Source: Tepidibacter hydrothermalis (GTDB lineage: Bacteria > Bacillota > Clostridia > Peptostreptococcales > Peptostreptococcaceae). Taken from it: 64,000 bases of DNA. Below the pieces are notes generated by a model. That model did not search any database. It was not told where the DNA came from and was given only the letters and a program-made list of their open reading frames with translations. Positions 28,438 to 44,042 of the stretch are shown here, in pieces; positions within the stretch are counted from its first letter, which is position 1; the number at the start of each line of letters is the position of its first letter. Location of the stretch: contig NZ_CP120733.1 in the NCBI RefSeq assembly GCF_029542625.1, positions 372,001 to 436,000 of the forward strand. The letters are read 5' to 3'. The translations under genes and the position numbers were made by a program.

Positions 28438-28557
28438 TATAATGGCTTAAGATAAAAACACGATCCGGTTGGTAGTCCGGATGCAGATTTTCTGTCAGTA
28501 ACCTGCCCTCCTGGGGTTGTCCATTCTTAATAAAGGCTAGTAAACAGGAGGAATGGA
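28438..28557 (+). promoter_or_regulatory. yjdF riboswitch (aza-aromatic sensing RNA) with anti-Shine-Dalgarno
   Basis: A TATAAT box at 28438-28443 is followed by a structured leader. ATCCGG (28463-28468) pairs with CCGGAT (28477-28482). A conserved-looking CTGTCAGTAACCTGCCCTCC block lies next to it. CCTCCTG (28507-28513) can pair with the CAGGAGG (28545-28551) ribosome binding site, and CCATTC (28521-28526) with GAATGG (28551-28556). This placement and layout, immediately before yjdF, match the known yjdF motif RNA, which binds aza-aromatic compounds and controls translation. Confidence 0.85.
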
Positions 28558-28559
28558 AG

Positions 28560-28982
28560 ATGAGTAGTATTTTATCAGGTAAATTAACAGTTTATTTTGA
28601 AACCCAATTTTGGGTTGGCGTATTTGAAAGAGTTGAAGAAGGAAATATTGAAATTTGTAAAGTAGTGTTTGGGCCTGAACCAAAAAGTTGTGAGATATAT
28701 GAATTTATATCTAAAAATTATAATAAACTTAGGTTTAGTAGACCGATTGCTATTGATAACAAAGTTGAAAAAAAAATTAATCCTAAAAGACTTCAAAGAC
28801 AAATACGTAAAGCTACACAAGAACGAGGAATTAGCACTAAAGCTCAACAAGCAATTAAGTTTGAACATGAATCAAGAAAAGTTGAGAGAAAAAAACTATC
28901 TAAAGAAAAAATCGAATTAAAGAAAAAAATAGATTTTGAAAAAAAACAAGCAAAGAAAAAACAAAAGAAAAAAGGTCATTAA
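28560..28982 (+). CDS. yjdF: YjdF family protein (DUF2992)
   Basis: This 140-residue protein of the YjdF family has an N-terminal SGKLTVYFETQFWVGVFERV, a middle GPEPKSCEIYEFI, and a very basic C-terminal half rich in Lys (QAKKKQKKKGH end). YjdF is the standard gene controlled by the yjdF riboswitch and is thought to help cells cope with toxic aza-aromatic compounds, though its exact activity is not known. The ribosome binding site AGGAGG is part of the riboswitch helix. A strong terminator (28985-29019) follows the stop codon, so this is a single-gene unit. Confidence 0.92.
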   Translation: MSSILSGKLTVYFETQFWVGVFERVEEGNIEICKVVFGPEPKSCEIYEFISKNYNKLRFSRPIAIDNKVEKKINPKRLQRQIRKATQERGISTKAQQAIKFEHESRKVERKKLSKEKIELKKKIDFEKKQAKKKQKKKGH

Positions 28983-34428: not shown

Positions 34429-34842
34429 TTATTTATAATCATTTAAAATATATTATACAAATAGAATAATTTAGTATTGTAAAAACAACTTAATGCTATT
34501 GTAATGATTTTAGAGTGAATTTCAAATTTACTCTTTTTTTTGTATATTAATACTTAACACTTTTACGAATTGTTTATTTAAATATTGATATATCTATGAT
34601 TAGAGTGAATTTTCATAAAATTGATTATTATATTTATACATAAAAATGTATAAGTATAATGTATACAAGGTAGTAAATGAATGCATTATTTAAGATTATA
34701 AAGGAAATTTAGTTTTTCGTCGAAATAGGAGGATTGTCGAATATTTTTGGTATTTGACTGGAAAATATATATTTCTTAGAATGGGGATATGTATTTAAAA
34801 AAGAAAGTTATTACTCGACATAAAAGGGAGATGTAAAGTTTG
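34429..34842. other. Long leader region before fdhF
   Basis: No gene is seen. The stretch holds the terminator at 34512-34541. The remaining 300 bases carry AT-rich promoter-like sequence and the fdhF ribosome binding site (GGGAGAT at 34827-34833). A GTCGAAATAGGAGGATTGTCGAA segment near 34717-34740 has a GTCGAA direct repeat of unknown meaning. I saw no sigma-54 type -24/-12 element. Confidence 0.35.
34512..34541 (+). terminator. Rho-independent terminator
   Basis: AGAGTGAA pairs with TTTACTCT (one G-T pair) around a 7-nt loop, followed by a run of T. It ends the oxidoreductase-DUF1499 operon. Confidence 0.75.
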
Positions 34843-36978
34843 ATGGAAGAGAAGATATTAACGGTCTGCCCATATTGTGGTGGAGGATGCCAATTATACT
34901 TGGTAGTCAAAGATGGGAAAATAGTAAGAGCCGAAGCTGCCGATGGAAGAACTAATGAAAAAAATCTATGTCTGAAGGGGTATTATGGATGGGATTTTTT
35001 AAATGATCCAAAGATCTTAACATCAAGAATTAAACACCCTATGATAAGAAAAGATGGAGAATTAGAAGAAGTTTCATGGAAAGAAGCTATAGACTTCGTA
35101 GCTACTAGACTTAATGATATAAAAAGTAAATACGGACCTGATTCTATAATGGGAACAGGATCTGCAAGAGGACCTGGAAATGAAGCAAACTACATAATGC
35201 AAAAATTTATGAGGGCTGTAATTGGAACTAATAATATAGATCATTGTGCTAGAGTGTGACATGCTCCATCAGTAGCCGGTCTGGACTACTCATTAGGAAA
35301 TGGTGCAATGTCAAATAGTATACCTGAAATAGAAAATACAGATTTATTATTTGTATTTGGATATAACGCAGCAGATTCACATCCTATTGTTGCAAGAAGA
35401 ATAGTAAAAGCAAAAGAAAAGGGAGCAAAAATTATAGTTACAGATCCTAGACTTACAGAAACGGGAAGAATATCTGATCTATGGTTACCTATAAAGGGTG
35501 GAACAAATATGGCATTAGTTAATGCATTTGCGAATGTATTAATTAATGAGAATCTTTATGATAAAGAATATGTAGATAATTACGTAGACGGATTTGAAGA
35601 ATATAAAGAAATGGTATCTAAGTATACACCTGAATATGCTGAGAGTATAACAGGTGTTAAAGCTGATGATATAAGAAAATCTATGAGAGAATATGCAAAA
35701 GCTAAAAATGCTATGATACTTTATGGTATGGGAGTATGTCAATTCTCTCAAGCAGTTGATGTTGTTAAGGGTCTTGCATCATTAGCTCTTTTAACTGGTA
35801 ACTTTGGAAGAGAATCAGTTGGAATAGGTCCAGTTCGTGGTCAAAATAATGTACAAGGAACTTGTGATATGGGAGTATTACCGAATATATATCCAGGATA
35901 CCAAAGTGTTACAGATGATAAAATTAGAGCTAAATTTGAAAAGGCTTGGGGAGTTCAGCTTCCAAGTGAACCAGGTTATAAACTGACTGAGGTTCCACAT
36001 TTAACATTACATGAGAAAAAGATAAAAGCTTATTATATATTTGGAGAAGACCCAGTTCAAAGTGATCCAAATGCAGCAGAGGTAAGAGAAACTTTAGATA
36101 ATATAGACCTTGTTATAGTGCAAGATATATTTATGAATAAAACGGCTCTTCATGCAGATGTTGTACTTCCTGCTACTTCATGGGGCGAACATGAAGGGGT
36201 TTACTCATCAGCTGATAGAGGATTCCAAATAATGAGAAAAGCAGTAGAACCTAAAGGGGATGTTAAACCTGATTGGGAGATTATATGCGAGATAGGTACT
36301 GCCATGGGATATCCTATGAAATACAATAATACTAAGGAAATCTGGGATGAAATGAGAAGTTTATGTCCTGATTTTGCAGGAGCAAGTTATGAACGTATAG
36401 AAGAATTAGGAAGTATACAGTGGCCGTGTTTAGATGAGGAAGATGATGGAACTCCATATTTATATGAAGGAAATAAGTTTTCAACTCCTAATGGAAAAGG
36501 AATATTATTTGCAGCTGAGTGGAGACCTCCAATGGAACTTCCAAATAAAGAGTACCCATTGAGCCTTTCAACTGTAAGAGAAGTAGGTCATTATTCAGTT
36601 AGAACTATGACTGGAAACTGTAGAGCATTAAAAGCGCTTGCAGATGAGCCAGGATATATACAAATGAGTGTTGAGGATGCTAATCATCTTTCAATAGAGC
36701 ATGAAGAATTTGTAAGAGTTACATCGAGAAGAGGAAGCGTAGTAACGAAAGCTTTTGTTACTGATAGAGTAAAAGAAGGATCTACTTTTATGACTTACCA
36801 ATGGTGGGTAGCGTCTTGTAATGAATTAACTAGTGATCATGTTGATCCTATCACAAAAACACCTGAGTATAAGTATTGTGCTATAAGAGTTGATAAAATA
36901 GATGATCAAGCTTGGGCAAAGCAGTATGTAGCAGATGAATATGAAGATATAAAAAGAAAAATGAATGTAAATAAGTAA
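34843..36978 (+). CDS. fdhF: Selenocysteine-containing formate dehydrogenase H-type catalytic subunit
   Basis: FdhF oxidises formate to CO2 at a molybdenum or tungsten bis-MGD centre and passes electrons to Fe-S partners. Translation must read through the in-frame TGA at 35257-35259 as selenocysteine (residue 139). The protein then has 711 residues, the normal FdhF length. The residues around it, ARV-Sec-HAPSVAG, are the conserved active site with Sec and His. The N-terminal CPYCGGGC plus a downstream Cys binds one [4Fe-4S] cluster. A SECIS-like hairpin follows the TGA. The ATG at 34843 has GGGAG upstream. The gene leads an operon with fdhD, two ferredoxins and an [FeFe] hydrogenase, so formate oxidation is coupled to hydrogen production or the reverse. 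Confidence 0.95.
35257..35290 (+). promoter_or_regulatory. Sec UGA codon and bacterial SECIS hairpin
   Basis: The UGA at 35257-35259 is followed by a stem, AGTAGCC (35271-35277) with GGACTACT (35283-35290, one bulged A). The apical loop GGTCT (35278-35282) is the same SelB-binding loop found in the Escherichia coli fdhF SECIS. It implies that selA, selB, selC and selD exist elsewhere in the genome. Confidence 0.85.
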
Positions 36979-37006
36979 AATCATACCATCAAAATAGGGG
37001 GTATTT

Positions 37007-37807
37007 ATGGATAAGACTATAAAATATAGTGCTATAAAAATTGAAGAAAACAAAGAGATTCTTTGTGAAGAAGAATTAGTCTGTGAATATCCACTTAACA
37101 TTTATGTAAATCAAAAAAAGATGGCTACACTACTTTGTACGCCTGATAAACTTAAAGAATTGGCAATCGGATTTTTAAGAACGGAAGAGATAATACATAA
37201 AAAAGAAGATATCCAATCGATTGAATTAGATGAATTCAAAGGATGTATAAAAATACAACTTAAAGATGATATAACCATCAAAAATTTTCAGTCAAAAAAG
37301 TTGAATATGCAAAATAATCATAATAACTGTATTAATGATTTTTTAGATTCAATAGACTGTGAGATTGTAACTAGTGATATTAAGTTGAGACAAGATAAAG
37401 TTCATGAATTTATGAAAAAGAATTTAACTCACTCAGATATATTCAAAAGAACGGGTGGAGTTCATAGTGTAGCACTTTGCGATACACAAAATATAATTAT
37501 TATAAATGAAGATGTTGCACGACATAATGCTGTGGATAAAGTTATAGGACAATCTTTCTTAGAGGATATAAATTTAAAAGATAAAATAATCGTATTGAGC
37601 GGAAGGGTATCTTTTGAGATGATTTTAAAATCTGCTAAAATGCAAATACCAATTATAATATCAAAGTCAGCTCCTACTAATTTATCTGTGAAACTTGCTA
37701 AAAAATTAGGAATTACATTAGTTGGTTTCGTAAGAAAAGAAAAAATGAACATATATACAAATAAATATAGAATACAACAATTAGAAAAAGGTGATATATA
37801 TGAATAA
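37007..37807 (+). CDS. fdhD: Formate dehydrogenase accessory sulfurtransferase FdhD
   Basis: FdhD transfers sulfur from a cysteine desulfurase to the molybdenum cofactor of formate dehydrogenase, which is needed for its activity. The 266-residue protein has the family blocks: LLCTPDKLKELAIGFLRTEE in the N-terminal half, FKRTGGVHSVAL, and EDVARHNAVDKVIG, with a C-terminal PIIISKSAPTNLSV. The CxxC motif of the E. coli protein is not visible; the corresponding loop keeps a Cys only in NNHNNCINDF. That loop varies in the family, so activity is still likely. The gene sits 28 bases after fdhF behind AGGGGG and overlaps the next gene by 8 bases. Confidence 0.9.
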   Translation: MDKTIKYSAIKIEENKEILCEEELVCEYPLNIYVNQKKMATLLCTPDKLKELAIGFLRTEEIIHKKEDIQSIELDEFKGCIKIQLKDDITIKNFQSKKLNMQNNHNNCINDFLDSIDCEIVTSDIKLRQDKVHEFMKKNLTHSDIFKRTGGVHSVALCDTQNIIIINEDVARHNAVDKVIGQSFLEDINLKDKIIVLSGRVSFEMILKSAKMQIPIIISKSAPTNLSVKLAKKLGITLVGFVRKEKMNIYTNKYRIQQLEKGDIYE

Positions 37808-38393
37808 TAATCTAAACTCATTCGTAGTAGCTGATTCAAGTAAGTGTATAGGTTGTAAAGCATGTGAAATTGCATGCTTTGCAGTTCATAATAAAAATAA
37901 TAATGTCGGATGTACGGTTGGAACTGTAGAAACAGCAGTAATTCCTAGATTATATCTTGTGAAAACACCTTCAGTTACTATGCCTATACAATGTAGACAA
38001 TGTGAGGATGCACCTTGTGCTAAGAGCTGTTCGGTTGGAGCTATAAGACAAATAGATAATACTATAGTAGTTGATCAAAAAAAATGTATAGGATGTAAAA
38101 ATTGTATTATGGCATGTCCGTTTGGAGCAATAGATCTTTTACCTCAATACGATAATGGAAAAGAGGTAGTACAATTTAATTTAAAAGAAGAATCACATAA
38201 TGGATTAGAAGAAATTGTGAAAAGTACTGCCTACAAATGTGATTTATGTATAGATAACGGTGAACAAGCATGCATAAAAACTTGTCCTAACAATGCTTTA
38301 AGGTTAGTAAAACCTCTAGACGAAAAAAAATATAAAAACAAAAAAGCTGCACAAGCTCTTATGAATACTACAAAAAATTACAAACAACTATAA
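37800..38393 (+). CDS. HydN-like four-cluster ferredoxin (electron transfer, first copy)
   Basis: This protein has 197 residues from the ATG at 37800, with AAAGGTGA upstream; it overlaps the end of fdhD by 8 bases, which suggests translational coupling. It has four [4Fe-4S] cluster motifs: CIGCKACEIAC, CRQCEDAPCAKSC, CIGCKNCIMAC, and CDLC paired with a later CIKTC. This is the HydN/DMSO-reductase electron-transfer subunit type. It should carry electrons between FdhF and the hydrogenase encoded next. A second gene of the same type follows the hydrogenase, and the two flank it symmetrically. Confidence 0.9.
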   Translation: MNNNLNSFVVADSSKCIGCKACEIACFAVHNKNNNVGCTVGTVETAVIPRLYLVKTPSVTMPIQCRQCEDAPCAKSCSVGAIRQIDNTIVVDQKKCIGCKNCIMACPFGAIDLLPQYDNGKEVVQFNLKEESHNGLEEIVKSTAYKCDLCIDNGEQACIKTCPNNALRLVKPLDEKKYKNKKAAQALMNTTKNYKQL

Positions 38394-38411
38394 TAAGTGA
38401 GGTTAAGTAAT

Positions 38412-39785
38412 ATGTCTATAATCAATATTGATAAAGAATTATGTACAGGGTGTAGACGATGTGCTAATGTATGTCCTGTTGGTGCTATAAAAGGAGAGCA
38501 GGGAAAGGTTCAAACTATAGATGAACATAAGTGTGTTGTTTGTGGTCAATGTGTTCAAATTTGCAGTTCTTATGCATCTCAATTTGATACGGAAATAACT
38601 TCTATTGATCTGAAGTTAAAAGAAAGAGGTATGCTGGAAGGTACTAAGGAACCTTTATTCGCAGCTTATAATATGGGACAGGTAGATTTATTAAAAAAAT
38701 ATTTATCTGATGATAATAAATATAAGATTGTTCAGTGTGCACCAGCAGTTAGAGTTGCATTAGCTGAAGAATTTGGTATGGAGTTTGGTAAGTTAACTCC
38801 TGGAAAAATGGCATCAGCTCTTAAAAAATTAAATTTTGATAGAGTATATGATACTAACTTTGCAGCGGATTTAACTATAATGGAAGAAGGAAGTGAACTT
38901 ATAAAGAGAGTTACAGAAGGCAAAAACTTGCCTATGTTTACTTCTTGTTGTCCTGCTTGGGTTAAGTTTGCTGAGACTGAGTATCCAGAAATTTTAAATC
39001 ATTTATCAAGTTGCAAGTCTCCACAACAAATGGCTGGAACTATATTTAAAACTTATGGAGCTGAAATAGATAATATAGATCCAAGTACTATATTAAGCGT
39101 TGCAGTTATGCCTTGTACTTGTAAACAGTTTGAATGTGATAGAGAAGAGATAAATAGTAGTGGATATAAAGATGTAGATATCGTTATAACTACTAGAGAA
39201 CTTGCTTATTTGATAAAAGATATGGGAATTGATTTTATAAATATAGATGATGAAGAATTTGATAAGCCTCTAGGAGAGTATAGTGGAGCGGGTACTATAT
39301 TTGGATCAACTGGAGGAGTTATGGAGGCAGCTCTTAGAACTGGATATGAACTAATAACTAAAAAGAGCATACCAAATATAGATTTGAAATTTGTAAGAGG
39401 TGGACAAGGATTAAGAACAGCTACTGTTGAGGTCGGAGATTTAAATTTAAATATAGCAATAGTTTCTGGACTTAAAAATGTAATACCTGTAATTGAAAGT
39501 ATAAAAGAGGGTAAATGTGATTTTCATTTCATAGAAGTTATGACATGTCCTGAGGGATGTGTAAGTGGTGGAGGTCAACCTAAATTATTGATAGAAGAGC
39601 ATAGAGATGTTGCATATAAAAAGAGAAAAGAATCTATATATGATCATGATTCAAATTTAAAAATAAGAAAATCTCATGAAAATCCAGCTATAAAAAAATT
39701 ATATGATGAGTTTTTAAAAGAACCTCTTGGTCATAAATCTCATCACTTATTGCATACGAACTATGTATCTAGAAAGGAGATTTAA
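38412..39785 (+). CDS. [FeFe] hydrogenase, formate dehydrogenase-linked
   Basis: This 457-residue iron-only hydrogenase reduces protons to H2 or takes up H2 at the H-cluster. The start is the ATG at 38412, with GAGG upstream. The N-terminus carries two [4Fe-4S] motifs (CTGCRRCANVCP and CVVCGQCVQIC). The three H-cluster signatures are complete: TSCCPAW (Cys179, Cys180), MPCTCKQFE (Cys235) and MTCPEGCVSGGGQP (Cys379, Cys383). It lacks the [2Fe-2S] and extra domains of CpI-type enzymes, as expected for the small hydrogenase of formate-hydrogen lyase-like complexes in Clostridioides and Eubacterium relatives. The H-cluster maturases HydE, HydF and HydG must be encoded elsewhere. Confidence 0.93.
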   Translation: MSIINIDKELCTGCRRCANVCPVGAIKGEQGKVQTIDEHKCVVCGQCVQICSSYASQFDTEITSIDLKLKERGMLEGTKEPLFAAYNMGQVDLLKKYLSDDNKYKIVQCAPAVRVALAEEFGMEFGKLTPGKMASALKKLNFDRVYDTNFAADLTIMEEGSELIKRVTEGKNLPMFTSCCPAWVKFAETEYPEILNHLSSCKSPQQMAGTIFKTYGAEIDNIDPSTILSVAVMPCTCKQFECDREEINSSGYKDVDIVITTRELAYLIKDMGIDFINIDDEEFDKPLGEYSGAGTIFGSTGGVMEAALRTGYELITKKSIPNIDLKFVRGGQGLRTATVEVGDLNLNIAIVSGLKNVIPVIESIKEGKCDFHFIEVMTCPEGCVSGGGQPKLLIEEHRDVAYKKRKESIYDHDSNLKIRKSHENPAIKKLYDEFLKEPLGHKSHHLLHTNYVSRKEI

Positions 39786-39787
39786 AT

Positions 39788-40345
39788 ATGAATACTTTTG
39801 TAATAGCAGACCCAGATAAATGTATAGGATGTAGAACTTGTGAAATAGCATGTGTTGTAGCTCATTCAGAAACAAATATATTAACTCAAGAAAATAATGA
39901 TATAGAATTTAACCCTAAATTAAGTGTTATAAAAACTGTAGAAGTAAGTGCACCTATACAGTGTAGACAATGTGAAGATGCTCCGTGTGCAAATATATGT
40001 CCAAATGGTTCTATTATAAATAAAGACGGAGTAATATACATAAATAAAGAAACTTGCATAGGATGTAAAACTTGTGTTGTAGCCTGTCCTTTTGGAGCTA
40101 TTGACTTAGTAAGTGAGTATAAAGATGGAGAGGTTGTAAATCAAGAAAATCTAAAGTGTATAGATAATAATAAGTGCTATTTTAAGGAACGTATAATAGC
40201 TAATAAATGTGATCTTTGCATAGATTCACCAGACGGACCAGCATGTGTAAAGGCGTGTCCAACTGATGCATTTAAGATAGTAAAAGGAACGCATTTAGAT
40301 AAATCTATAAAGAATAAGAGAAAGAAAAGTGCATCACTTCTTTAA
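39788..40345 (+). CDS. HydN-like four-cluster ferredoxin (second copy)
   Basis: This 185-residue protein starts 2 bases after the hydrogenase stop codon, with GAAAGGAG inside the hydrogenase end. Four [4Fe-4S] motifs are seen (CIGCRTCEIAC, CRQCEDAPCANIC, CIGCKTCVVAC, and CDLC with CVKAC). It is a paralogue of the gene at 37800-38393. Together with FdhF and the hydrogenase it should form a soluble formate:H2-converting complex, or deliver electrons from it to other carriers. No terminator is obvious between its end and the cysS leader promoter, so some readthrough into the leader is possible. Confidence 0.9.
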   Translation: MNTFVIADPDKCIGCRTCEIACVVAHSETNILTQENNDIEFNPKLSVIKTVEVSAPIQCRQCEDAPCANICPNGSIINKDGVIYINKETCIGCKTCVVACPFGAIDLVSEYKDGEVVNQENLKCIDNNKCYFKERIIANKCDLCIDSPDGPACVKACPTDAFKIVKGTHLDKSIKNKRKKSASLL

Positions 40346-40361
40346 AATTACAAAATAAATA

Positions 40362-40390
40362 TTGCATTTTTCATTATAATACCATAATAT
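40362..40390 (+). promoter_or_regulatory. Promoter of the cysS leader
   Basis: TTGCAT (40362-40367) and TAATAT (40385-40390), 17 bases apart, form a good sigma-A type promoter. It would start the transcript about 25-30 bases before the Cys-rich leader ORF. Confidence 0.55.
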
Positions 40391-40423
40391 AGAATAAAAT
40401 AACTATAAAAGGAGGATATTAAA

Positions 40424-40498
40424 ATGATGTATTGTTGCTGTTGTTGTTTTAAGAATATAACAAAATTTAAGATAACAGCAGACCTGTGTCAATTTTAA
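40424..40498 (+). CDS. Cys-codon leader peptide upstream of cysS (predicted attenuator)
   Basis: This short ORF encodes 24 residues, MMYCCCCCFKNITKFKIT and then ADLCQF. It has a perfect AAAGGAGG ribosome binding site (40408-40415) 8 bases before the ATG. Five Cys codons in a row (40433-40447) plus one near the end are far above chance. The ORF is followed by a terminator and then cysS, the gene for the enzyme that charges tRNA-Cys. This is the layout of amino-acid leader peptides such as those of trp or his operons. When charged tRNA-Cys is scarce, a ribosome would stall at the Cys run and change the RNA fold downstream. No T-box is visible here. Function is inferred from layout; a free metal-binding peptide is a less likely alternative. 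Confidence 0.8.
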   Translation: MMYCCCCCFKNITKFKITADLCQF

Positions 40499-40506
40499 TA
40501 TTTTAT

Positions 40507-40608
40507 AGTTTAAAATACTTATATTGAAGTTTATAAAAAGTAAACTACAGGTTAGTTTATAGTTTTTCTTTATTTTAAGAGAAGCTATAACTCTTCTGTA
40601 GTTTTTTT
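40507..40608 (+). terminator. Attenuator: terminator with competing hairpins before cysS
   Basis: AAACTACAG (40542-40550) pairs with CTGTAGTTT (40596-40604), extended by inner pairs, and ends in seven T (40602-40608), forming a terminator. Its 5' arm overlaps TAAACT (40541-40546). That segment can instead pair with AGTTTA at 40528-40533 or at 40554-40559, with a third AGTTTA at 40507-40512, nine bases after the leader stop codon. These mutually exclusive pairings fit ribosome-controlled attenuation. Confidence 0.65.
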
Positions 40609-40636
40609 ATATAAAAAAACAAAAGGAGGTAATAAA

Positions 40637-42055
40637 ATGGAGTTAAGAATTTATAACACGTTAACAAAAGTTCAGGAAAAGTTTGTACCAATAGATAGTA
40701 AAAAGGTAAAAATGTATACTTGTGGACCAACTGTATATAATTTTGCTCATATTGGAAATTTAAGAACTTATATATTCGAAGATGTACTAAAAAGAGTTCT
40801 TGAATATGGAGGATATGAAGTCAAACATATAATGAATATAACTGACGTAGGTCATTTACAATCAGATGCAGATACTGGTGAGGATAAAATGAGAATGGGA
40901 GCAAAGAGAGAACATAAAAGTGTATTGGAAATAGCTAGATTTTATGAAGATGCATTTATTAGTGACTTGAAAAAACTAAATATAAAGCTTCCAACAGTAC
41001 TACCTAGAGCTACAGAGCATGTTGAAGATATGATAAATTTAATAAAGACTTTAGAAGAAAAGGGATATACTTATACAGCTAATAAAAATGTATATTTTTC
41101 AATAGATATGTTTGAAGATTATTATAAGCTAGCAAATCTAACACCTAAAGAACTTCAAGCAGGCAGTAGAGTAGATGTGGATCCTTTTAAAAGAAATCCA
41201 CTAGACTTTGTACTTTGGTTTGGAAATTCTAAATATGAAAATCATATACTACAATGGGACTCTCCTTGGGGAGTTGGATTTCCAGGATGGCATATAGAAT
41301 GCTCAGCCATGGCTATAAAGTATTTAGGAGATTATATGGATATTCATTGTGGAGGTGTAGATCATATACCAGTACATCACACTAATGAACTAGCTCAATC
41401 AGAAGGTGCACTTGGGCATAAATGGGTAAATTACTGGATGCATGGTGAATTTCTAATATTAGATAATGGAAAAATGTCTAAATCAAAGGGTGAATTTTTA
41501 ACTTTAGATAGGTTAATAGAAAAAGGGTTTGATCCATTAGTGTATAGATATTATGTACTTCAATCAAAATATAGAAAACCATTAACTTTCAGCTATGAAA
41601 GATTAGAAGAAGCAAAAAAATCTTTAACATCTTTAAAACAAAAAATAAATTCTATAATAAATAATATAGATGAATTCACATTAAAAGATGAATATAAAAT
41701 TAAGAAATATAAAGATGAGTTTGATAAATATATAAATGATGATTTGAACTTAGCTAATGGATTTACTGTATTATTCAATGCTATAAAAGATGATAGTTTA
41801 AATAACTTAGAAAAAAAGATTTTGATAGAAGATTTTGATAAAGTATTTGGATTGAATTTTATAAAAATTGATACAGAAAATAAAAAAATAGACGAAAGTA
41901 AAATGAATTTGGTAGAAAAACTCTTAAAAGAAAGAGAAGAATCTAGAAAAAATAAAGACTGGGAGAAATCAGATAAAATAAGAAAGCTTTTATTAGAAAT
42001 GGATATAGAAATTTTAGACACTAGAGAAGGTACTAAATGGAAGGTTAAGGAATAA
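40637..42055 (+). CDS. cysS: Cysteinyl-tRNA synthetase
   Basis: CysRS charges tRNA-Cys with cysteine. The 472-residue protein is of normal length. It has the zinc-binding start YTCGPTVYNFAHIGNLRTY, which contains the class I HIGN (HIGH) motif, followed by the WDSPWGVGFPGWHIECSAMA block and the KMSKSKGE (KMSKS) motif. The C-terminal anticodon-binding helical domain is present. AAAGGAGG lies 8 bases before the ATG. It is not in the usual gltX-cysS-cysE cluster but stands alone behind a Cys-codon leader and terminator. Cysteine supply is linked to the Fe-S-rich formate-hydrogenase operon just upstream, although a functional link is only suggested by position. Confidence 0.95.
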   Translation: MELRIYNTLTKVQEKFVPIDSKKVKMYTCGPTVYNFAHIGNLRTYIFEDVLKRVLEYGGYEVKHIMNITDVGHLQSDADTGEDKMRMGAKREHKSVLEIARFYEDAFISDLKKLNIKLPTVLPRATEHVEDMINLIKTLEEKGYTYTANKNVYFSIDMFEDYYKLANLTPKELQAGSRVDVDPFKRNPLDFVLWFGNSKYENHILQWDSPWGVGFPGWHIECSAMAIKYLGDYMDIHCGGVDHIPVHHTNELAQSEGALGHKWVNYWMHGEFLILDNGKMSKSKGEFLTLDRLIEKGFDPLVYRYYVLQSKYRKPLTFSYERLEEAKKSLTSLKQKINSIINNIDEFTLKDEYKIKKYKDEFDKYINDDLNLANGFTVLFNAIKDDSLNNLEKKILIEDFDKVFGLNFIKIDTENKKIDESKMNLVEKLLKEREESRKNKDWEKSDKIRKLLLEMDIEILDTREGTKWKVKE

Positions 42056-42070
42056 GTGGTTTTAGATAAA

Positions 42071-42110
42071 AAAATAGAGAGTAAAATTTAAAATTTTACT
42101 CTCTATTTTA
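42071..42110. terminator. Bidirectional terminator
   Basis: AAAATAGAGAGTAAAATTT and AAATTTTACTCTCTATTTT form a near-perfect long stem between the convergent cysS and formate channel genes, flanked by A and T runs. Confidence 0.85.
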
Positions 42111-42150
42111 ATTTAGTTATATTCAAAATAAGGGATTATAAGTTTCTAAT

Positions 42151-43014
42151 TTATATAGATGATTTTTGTGTTTTGTTACTTTTCTTTACGTATATAAACC
42201 AATATATAGCTCCTACAAAGAAAGCTCCTCCAACTATATTTCCTAAAGTTACCGGAACTAAGTTGCTAAATATAAAGCTTTTCCAGTTAAGAGCATCTAG
42301 AGACTCATTAGATAAGTGAGATGCATGTGCATAGTGAGAATCTGATTTTGCTAGTATTCCAGCTGATATATAGTACATATTAGCTACACTATGCTCGAAT
42401 CCTGAAGTGATAAATAACCATATAGGAAAGAATATTCCTAGTATTTTACCTGTTATATCTTTAGCAGAGTATGACAACCAAACGGCAAGACATACAAGCC
42501 AGTTACACATGATTCCTAAGAAAAATGCATTTGTAAAAGATAAAGAGACTTTATAATATGCTATTTTTATAGTGGTACCAGCCAGCATATTACCCCCCAT
42601 ATGAAGTTGACCAGAGTTAACAATCATATATGCGACAAAAATTGATCCGACAAAATTCCCTAAATAAACTAAAATCCAGTTCATAAACATATCTTTCAAT
42701 TTTATCTTTTTTTCAAGCACGCCCATTATTATAAGTGTATTACCTGTAAAAAGATCAGCTCCGGCAATAATAACTAACATAAGACCTGTTCCAAATAAAG
42801 CTCCAGCCATTGCTTTTCCAAGACCGTAAGTTTCAGGCTTTGACCAAAGTCCATAAGCTGAAACGTTAGAACCTTCAGCTGCAAATGCTATAAATGCTCC
42901 TGCTAATATACCTAATAAAAATTGAATAAAATAATTTTTGCTTACTTTTTTAATACCTGTATCAATAGTATAAGATGCTATTTCATCAGGTGCTAGATAA
43001 TTTTTAGTACTCAT
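42151..43014 (-). CDS. Formate/nitrite transporter family channel (FocA-like)
   Basis: This protein has 287 residues from the ATG at 43014, with GAAAGGAG 9 bases upstream. Six membrane helices of the FNT family are seen. Marks include an N-terminal APDEIASYTIDTGIKK amphipathic segment, GLMLVIIAGADLFTGNTLI in the first half, and FITSGFEHSVANMYYI carrying the conserved His of the pore. PVTLGNIVGGAFFVGA follows. FNT channels are pentamers that pass formate or related small anions. Being next to a formate dehydrogenase-hydrogenase operon, formate is the likely substrate. A paralogue is encoded divergently at 43248-44042, and the two share a 233-bp promoter region. Confidence 0.9.
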   Translation of the reverse strand: MSTKNYLAPDEIASYTIDTGIKKVSKNYFIQFLLGILAGAFIAFAAEGSNVSAYGLWSKPETYGLGKAMAGALFGTGLMLVIIAGADLFTGNTLIIMGVLEKKIKLKDMFMNWILVYLGNFVGSIFVAYMIVNSGQLHMGGNMLAGTTIKIAYYKVSLSFTNAFFLGIMCNWLVCLAVWLSYSAKDITGKILGIFFPIWLFITSGFEHSVANMYYISAGILAKSDSHYAHASHLSNESLDALNWKSFIFSNLVPVTLGNIVGGAFFVGAIYWFIYVKKSNKTQKSSI

Positions 43015-43247
43015 AAAAACTCCTTTCAAATTACAATTAAAATAAAAACAACCCTATAAATTATATCATTTTGCATACAAAAAACAATACATTTAGATAG
43101 CATTACAAAAAAATACTAATTATGAAATTTAGGAAAAATACTAATCAGAAAATTGATAAAAATTAAACAAATCTATTGTAAGAAAATGGAAAACAGTATA
43201 GAATATATATAAATACAAAATATATTTTAATTTGGGGGAGATATTTT

Positions 43248-44042
43248 ATGGAAAAGAGATATTTAACACCTAAAGAAGTAGCTCAGGCAACTATCAAAAG
43301 TGGAATAGCTAAAGCTAATCTTAAGCTCTGTCATATGCTGATACTTGGGATTTTTGCAGGTATGTTCATAGCTTTTGGAGCTTATGGAGACATTGTAATA
43401 ATGCAGACATTAAAAAATATAGACGTAGGTTTGATGAAATTTTTTGGAGCACTAGTATTTCCTATAGGACTTATGTTAGTAGTTATGGCAGGGGCAGAAC
43501 TTTTTACTGGAAACAATCTTATGACTTTAGCTTTCATGGATAAGAAAATAACATTGAAACAACTTATGACAAATTGGATTGTAGTTTATATTGGGAATTT
43601 TATAGGGTCATTATTTTTAGTATTTGTATTGTTTAAAGCAAATTTATTTTCTGAATCAGCTACAACTTTAAGCGTTAATATAGCAAAAGCGAAAATATCT
43701 TTACCTTTTGGAGTATTATTTTTAAGAGCAATATTATGTAATATAATAGTGGTTTTAGCTGTATGGATGGCAACAGCTGCACAAGATATAGTATCAAAAA
43801 TATTTGCATGTTGGTTTCCTATAATGTTATTTGTATTATCTGGTTATGAACATAGTGTAGCAAATATGTTTTTTATACCAATGGGTAAGGCATTAGGGTT
43901 ATCAGTTAGTTGGATTGATATATTTACGGTTAACTTAATACCTGTAACCTTAGGAAATATAGTAGGTGGAGGTTTAATAGTTCCTATAGCGTATTATATT
44001 TGTTATGTTAAAAATAACAAAGAAAAAGTGAAAAATATATAA
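43248..44042 (+). CDS. Formate/nitrite transporter family channel (second copy)
   Basis: This 264-residue protein is a paralogue of the divergent gene next to it. It opens with LTPKEVAQATIKSGIAKANL and has GLMLVVMAGAELFTGNNLM. The pore-histidine block is LFVLSGYEHSVANMFFIP, and PVTLGNIVGGGLIVPIA lies near the C-terminus. Six membrane helices are seen. TTGGGGGAG precedes the ATG. Two formate channels side by side may serve export and import, or two conditions; the sequence does not say which. A strong terminator follows at 44074-44111. Confidence 0.9.
   Translation: MEKRYLTPKEVAQATIKSGIAKANLKLCHMLILGIFAGMFIAFGAYGDIVIMQTLKNIDVGLMKFFGALVFPIGLMLVVMAGAELFTGNNLMTLAFMDKKITLKQLMTNWIVVYIGNFIGSLFLVFVLFKANLFSESATTLSVNIAKAKISLPFGVLFLRAILCNIIVVLAVWMATAAQDIVSKIFACWFPIMLFVLSGYEHSVANMFFIPMGKALGLSVSWIDIFTVNLIPVTLGNIVGGGLIVPIAYYICYVKNNKEKVKNI

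Follow-up and report, generated by a model that had tools for sequence, protein, structure and literature searches.

A conserved Cys-codon leader and a putative transcription attenuator in front of a second cysteinyl-tRNA synthetase gene in Clostridia

Organization of the cysS2 locus

The window analyzed here is a stretch of 64,000 nucleotides of the Tepidibacter hydrothermalis genome (NZ_CP120733.1, positions 372,001 to 436,000). It contains a gene for a cysteinyl-tRNA synthetase (CysRS), cysS2, which is preceded by a short ORF with a run of Cys codons and by an intrinsic terminator (Table 1). The first-pass annotation of this DNA had described a 24-codon ORF with a strong ribosome binding site and five consecutive Cys codons as well as a terminator between this ORF and cysS, and all of these are present in the sequence. 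The ORF reads ATG ATG TAT before the Cys run starts, has an additional, sixth Cys codon at codon 22 and ends with a stop codon at 40496-40498. The RNA from 40410 to 40640 folds with -57.2 kcal/mol, which is 5.4 SD better than shuffled sequences. A promoter-like site is found at most 70 nt upstream of most leaders of this kind, which is only slightly better than in shuffled sequences. Around cysS2, positions 34840-44042 encode a formate dehydrogenase (FDH), FdhD, two HydN-like ferredoxins, a short [FeFe] hydrogenase and two FocA-type transporters. The cluster resembles the gene set of a hydrogen-dependent CO2 reductase; its hydrogenase-like protein has 462 aa. The hydrogenase/formate context was considered as a key to the cysS2 leader and rejected, since it is not common to other genera.

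Table 1. Features of the cysS2 leader region in the window
Feature	Position	Strand	Basis
Candidate promoter TTGCAT (40362-40367), 17 nt spacer, TAATAT (40385-40390)	40362-40390	+	Sequence and matching stretch in T. mesophilus; weak
Alternative promoter call TTTTCA/TAGAAT	40368-40395	+	Promoter scan
Shine-Dalgarno sequence AGGAGG of the leader ORF	40410-40415	+	Sequence
Leader peptide ORF, 24 codons, MMYCCCCCFKNITKFKITADLCQF	40424-40498	+	Sequence; counterparts of 14-33 codons in 31 genomes
Putative sensing codons (region 1), five consecutive Cys codons TGT TGC TGT TGT TGT	40433-40447	+	3-7 Cys codons near the start in 31/31 leaders
Hairpin 1:2, Cys codons 40438-40453 paired with 40466-40481	40438-40481	+	MFE fold
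Region 2, antiterminator 5' strand GACCUGUG, within the last codons of the ORF	40481-40488	+	Pairs with 40546-40553
UAGUUUA, extends the antiterminator by pairing with UAAACUA (40541-40547)	40506-40512	+	Sequence
Region 3, terminator 5' arm AAACUACAGG (40542-40551), overlapping the antiterminator 3' strand UACAGGUU (40546-40553)	40542-40553	+	Part of two helices that exclude each other; compensatory changes in both
Region 4, terminator 3' arm UCUGUAGUUU (40595-40604) and U-run (40602-40608)	40595-40608	+	Fold and stem search; predicted 3' end near 40608
Shine-Dalgarno sequence AGGAGG of cysS2	40624-40629	+	Sequence
cysS2, second, divergent cysteinyl-tRNA synthetase, 472 aa	40637-42055	+	TIGR00435; own tree clade

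The second cysteinyl-tRNA synthetase

The product of cysS2 matches the NCBIfam model TIGR00435 (cysS) over its full length with 470 bits (cut-off 340), and the HIGN and KMSKS motifs are present in its translation. The genome of 4.16 Mb harbors two CysRS genes. The gene behind the leader is a CysRS gene, as the first-pass annotation had assumed, but it is the divergent second copy and not the housekeeping one, to which its product is only 42% identical. The housekeeping cysS (G000:C1:3992174-3993559) sits behind proS, gltX, cysK and cysE, going by gene names that we read from the translations. The idea that it has the same leader was dropped, as the proS-gltX-cysK-cysE-cysS region contains no run of at least three Cys codons and two gaps that were read by eye contain none either.

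In a quick, midpoint-rooted tree of 96 proteins the CysS2 sequences form a clade of 35 members with 98% SH-aLRT support, which come from Peptostreptococcaceae, Clostridiaceae and Lutispora, and in this tree the clade lies nearer to CysRS of spirochaetes and of other clostridial MAGs than to the housekeeping clostridial CysRS. A second CysRS accompanies CysS2 in 32 of the 35 genomes searched, and in the remaining three (G431, G524, and G583) CysS2 is the only CysRS found. The sole CysS2-type enzyme of G524 and G583 carries the Cys leader, so that the attenuator would control the only CysRS of these two genomes. In addition to its housekeeping CysRS, Terrisporobacter petrolearius has CysS2 in two copies, one with the leader and one without, the latter adjoining transposase-like genes. 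Two further ideas about cysS2 were followed and rejected. A special tRNA partner next to the gene was not detected, since ARAGORN found no tRNA in any of the 19 cysS2 loci (19/19), and for a plasmid origin no plasmid CysRS with more than 60% identity to CysS2 was found in the plasmids collection. In the same collection, 503 Klebsiella plasmid records match a CysRS that is less than 60% identical to CysS2, and an extra plasmid-borne CysRS may be common in Klebsiella.

Distribution of the leader family

A covariance model, R1, was built from an alignment of 12 leaders (A1) that were first found beside cysS2 orthologues; it contains leader sequence only and no cysS sequence. R1 gave eight strong matches and one weak match in 71 genomes of the window's family, 22 matches with E < 0.0015 and six weaker ones in 207 Clostridiaceae genomes centered on C. 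carboxidivorans, and the window's own copy together with four weak matches in 341 genomes across the class. Altogether the leader is present in 31 genomes, 18 of which had not been seen when the model was built, and the taxa that bear it are Tepidibacter, other Peptostreptococcaceae, Lutispora and many Clostridium species. All matches with E < 0.0015 precede cysS2, in one case across a transposon, and R1 yielded no match at this threshold on any other gene. The weaker matches (E 0.0017-0.01) never precede cysS2; they lie upstream of unrelated genes, have no Cys run and were discarded. Of 19 loci of the CysS2 clade that came from a leader-blind scan, ten have the leader directly upstream and one has it beyond an insertion, whereas eight lack it. 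In Clostridium mobile a three-gene recombinase transposon (about 2.0-5.9 kb of the extracted locus), which from reading its genes we take to be Tn554-like, lies between the Cys leader and an intact cysS2. Furthermore, in Clostridium sp. UBA701 and in locus L144 the Cys leader is followed by two tandem terminator-like hairpins, both with a CUGCAGG-type 5' arm. The leader family thus looks clostridial, specific for cysS2 and old enough to span two families as well as Lutispora.

Conservation of the Cys codons in relatives was the point at which the first-pass annotation had declared its own proposal open to refutation, and a Cys-rich ORF is present in 31/31 leaders. These ORFs have 14-33 codons, of which 3-7 near the start are Cys codons, located at codons 2-12 and mostly at 2-9. 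The Cys runs comprise 149 Cys codons, 114 TGT and 35 TGC with neither TGA nor TGG, in 19 different arrangements, and are interrupted by only six other codons (TAC and AGT twice each, TTT, and AGA). As the third base is T or C in 149/149 codons, selection acts on how the codons are read. The residues following the run are not conserved between lineages. GGAGG opens every row of the 12-leader alignment, 8-10 nt before the start codon. In 291 genomes of the class the pattern SD-ATG-(TGY)5 has three matches. The window genome accounts for one of them, and the other two are chance Cys runs out of frame inside long genes. Since the pattern is this rare and the leader is kept in 31 genomes, the leader ORF is not a product of chance.

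Two mutually exclusive helices

The key pairing of the family is RACCUGYG : YGCAGGU, which in the window is formed by regions 2 and 3 and shares an arm with the terminator. The first-pass annotation had proposed a competing pairing between AGTTTA and TAAACT. This pairing exists, but it is only a local extension of the conserved helix (40481-40488 with 40546-40553); its AGUUU:AAACU core is retained in the other two copies of the genus Tepidibacter and is not general. The antiterminator core forms 7/7 pairs in 12/12 leaders. When all 31 leaders are aligned to R1, 87% of the antiterminator cells are paired, compared to 27-39% when the strands are slid against each other; 12 cells have double changes, a value reached in 2/500 shuffles, and the covariation score was reached in 0/500, whereby these shuffle p-values ignore the relatedness of the sequences. 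For the terminator, 95% of the cells are paired in the 31 leaders and six pairs have double changes, a number that none of 500 shuffles attained, again with relatedness ignored. The alignment of the 31 leaders (A2) was fitted to the terminator and therefore favors the terminator helix, not the antiterminator. Four leaders (L148, L150, L153, and L156) have a CUGCAGU-like region 2, for which the pairing with ACUGCAG-like arms is retained. In a duplex test against shuffled versions of region 2, p < 0.05 was obtained for 20/31 leaders; because the rows are related, the combined p-value should not be read literally. No advantage of the duplex over the shuffles was seen for the G-U-rich antiterminators of the Lutispora, C. 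zeae, and C. rhizosphaerae type. Pairings between the Cys codons and AACAGC-like sequences occur in several relatives and are absent from others, which is why hairpin 1:2 is regarded as a feature of a subgroup. The ORF with its start signal, the conserved codons and the two exclusive covarying helices are all read from the sequence itself.

The geometry of the leaders fits a switch that is set by the position of a ribosome. In nearly all of them region 2 begins about 24-40 nt past the last Cys codon of the run. A ribosome reaches about 10 nt past its A site, so that a ribosome on the Cys run cannot reach region 2. In most leaders region 2 is located no more than about 25 nt ahead of the stop codon or else a few nt behind it. 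In L147, L151, L152, and L158 the stop codon precedes region 2, and masking by a terminating ribosome would be partial there. Constrained folding was done for 29 leaders, in which the ribosome footprints were masked and the RNA ended ahead of region 4. The median probability of the region 2:3 pairing was 0.19 without a ribosome, 0.73 when a ribosome occupied the Cys codons and 0.00 when it stood at the stop codon. The value at the stop codon results in part from the masking itself, whereas the rise from 0.19 to 0.73 does not. On the full transcript the terminator dominates at equilibrium in nearly every ribosome state, and therefore the choice between the folds has to be made kinetically, as it is in trp.

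T-boxes are absent from cysS2

Firmicutes are the textbook users of T-boxes for sensing tRNA charging. The genome of the window contains 26 T-boxes above cut-off and four relatives have 25-38 T-box matches each, with none of them at cysS2. Rfam scans at gathering level detected no T-box anywhere in the window and none at cysS2 in the 19 loci, which bears out for the window and its relatives the earlier statement that no T-box signature precedes the gene. Moreover, the leader matches no Rfam family at all, T-box included. Cysteine T-boxes of C. perfringens were described for cysK-cysE, cysP1, cysP2, and ubiG, and in other Firmicutes for cysS (PMC2940859). The same study from 2010 suggested that clostridia may have further ways of controlling cysteine metabolism (PMC2940859). 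The absence of a T-box is, like the placement of region 2 relative to the Cys run and the stop codon and the tie of the leader to cysS2, a feature that the genomes themselves display.

A predicted attenuator and its alternatives

Taken as a whole, we consider it highly probable (roughly 0.88) that the leader is a trp-type ribosome-mediated transcription attenuator, which would sense charged tRNA-Cys and induce a backup CysRS. Ribosome-mediated attenuation of cysS had already been suggested in the first-pass annotation, and the suggestion now has comparative support from the codon-level conservation of the Cys run, the covarying helices with a shared arm, the exclusive tie to cysS2 and the lack of a T-box. 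According to this model RNA polymerase would transcribe the leader and a ribosome would load at 40410-40424. With plentiful Cys-tRNA it would pass the Cys codons up to the stop codon and cover region 2, whereupon region 3 (40542-40553) would pair with region 4 (40595-40604) and transcription would end near 40608. When Cys-tRNA is short, the ribosome would stall at 40433-40447 and break hairpin 1:2, leaving region 2 (40481-40488) exposed. Region 2 could then pair with region 3 while region 4 is still to be transcribed, no terminator would form and cysS2 would be transcribed. We infer that the leader ORF is translated, that ribosomes stall on it and that the choice between the folds is kinetic. 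An induction of cysS2 under shortage of cysteine or of CysRS is predicted, and CysS2 would have a backup role.

Other explanations can be given for the same features. The nascent Cys-rich peptide itself might sense a metal, Fe-S, the redox state or a drug via stalling, with the same terminator switch downstream, which would be in line with the ability of poly-Cys to bind metal and with the FdhD/HydN/[FeFe]-hydrogenase/FocA cluster that cysS2 adjoins in the window. However, the Cys residues come from codons 2-12, mostly 2-8, so that a ribosome on the run would still have them deep inside its exit tunnel, and the number of Cys (3-7) and the following residues vary freely. As the hydrogenase neighborhood is not common to other genera and the regulated gene encodes CysRS, the expected target of a sensor of tRNA charging, we regard this as very unlikely. 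The UGY repeat could also act as RNA and not as codons in an RNA-only switch, either T-box-like or a riboswitch, and in the window the Cys codons indeed pair with 40466-40481. The exclusive use of T or C at the third base and the conserved Shine-Dalgarno sequence and start codon speak against it, as do the lineages in which the Cys-codon stem is missing and the lack of a match to any Rfam family, T-box included, which together make it highly improbable.

The good start signal and the conserved Cys run would equally be expected for a functional Cys-rich microprotein that merely happens to be encoded ahead of cysS2, the two being separated by an ordinary terminator. Its length would then range from 14 to 33 codons without conservation of the sequence after the run between lineages; moreover, the ORF is always tied to cysS2, and pairing of the RNA with the terminator arm accounts for the conservation of its 3' part, so that there is next to no room for this explanation. 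Finally, control could be ribosome-mediated but act via translation of cysS2 or via Rho instead of an intrinsic terminator. A precedent for this are the mycobacterial poly-Cys ORFs, which are described as acting by translation attenuation (Canestrari et al., 2020, cited in PMC13236596). Against it, ORF and gene are separated in the family by a U-tailed stem that covaries and has a conserved competitor, and in the window the ribosome binding site of cysS2 is outside the terminator stem; such a route is extremely improbable.

Comparison with known systems

Similar to the trp and his attenuators (Yanofsky), the clostridial leader has a run of regulatory codons, 1:2, 2:3, and 3:4 alternatives, and a terminator with a shared arm, and region 2 would be masked by a ribosome at the stop codon. 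It possesses a 5' short ORF with a Shine-Dalgarno sequence, a conserved Cys-codon run, an intrinsic terminator and an antiterminator that shares the terminator 5' arm. According to spacing and constrained folding, a ribosome at the stop codon would mask region 2 and one on the Cys codons would free it, with partial masking in about 4/31 leaders. In contrast to trp and his, it controls an aminoacyl-tRNA synthetase and not a biosynthetic operon, its 1:2 hairpin is not universal and it occurs in Clostridia that use T-boxes.

The closest counterpart by position is the uORFC-8-2 motif, which was predicted upstream of cysS in Rhodobacterales with 145 examples (PMC8632094). Both have a short ORF with Cys codons, a terminator, the position before cysS and the proposed logic. 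However, uORFC-8-2 belongs to Alphaproteobacteria, is not described in Clostridia and has two Cys codons at 14-15 and different stems (PMC8632094), whereas the clostridial leader has a run of 3-7, mostly at codons 2-9. The two tandem Cys codons at about 14-15 that define the rhodobacterial motif are not found in the clostridial leaders, and there is no evidence for a common descent of the two. Poly-Cys short ORFs before cysteine-related genes are also reported for mycobacteria, where they are cysteine-responsive attenuators (Canestrari et al., 2020, cited in PMC13236596). These ORFs are leaderless, have no Shine-Dalgarno sequence, belong to Actinomycetota and are described as exerting translation attenuation of cysteine biosynthesis genes (PMC13236596). 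The aligned clostridial leaders do have a Shine-Dalgarno sequence and hence do not start at the transcript 5' end in the leaderless manner. With the Cys-specific T-box the leader shares premature termination and the charging of tRNA-Cys as input (PMC2940859), but the T-box recognizes uncharged tRNA by direct binding and works independently of translation, whereas the clostridial leader is predicted to depend on translation.

A clostridial Cys leader was found neither in the open-access literature searched nor in Rfam, and in these the family appears to be undescribed. The class of mechanism is known from trp and his, the prediction for cysS in Rhodobacterales and the mycobacterial poly-Cys ORFs, while the clostridial family looks new. 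The earlier claim of a different solution to sensing tRNA-Cys in Clostridia can thus be kept for Clostridia, but the principle as such had already been predicted in Rhodobacterales (PMC8632094).

Putative role of CysS2

If the prediction holds, the same cells would have a second, independent solution beside their T-boxes, in which the level of Cys-tRNA is read by translating Cys codons. Since the leader is tied to the duplicated synthetase, the housekeeping and the emergency CysRS are apparently under different control. The analysis also provides an annotation and a model for a 24-codon gene that is skipped by pipelines, including in the industrial acetogens C. carboxidivorans and C. drakei. 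More speculatively, and in our estimate rather unlikely as a complete account, CysS2 could be an inhibitor-tolerant or starvation-adapted replacement CysRS, which entered the Clostridia early from a source other than the housekeeping lineage, is silenced by the attenuator and is induced only upon failure of the housekeeping enzyme due to starvation, a cysteine analogue or a natural CysRS inhibitor. CysS2 would then be an inducible target-replacement system that in a few genomes is now the only CysRS.

Further observations in the window

The formate dehydrogenase frame at 34840-36978 has an in-frame TGA at 35257-35259 (CARV-TGA-HAP), at the place usual for selenocysteine in FDH-H, so that the protein is probably a selenoprotein and not the product of a broken gene. 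Furthermore, an azaaromatic (yjdF) riboswitch is located at 28442-28540, and the ORF that comes after it (28560-28982, 140 aa) resembles YjdF.
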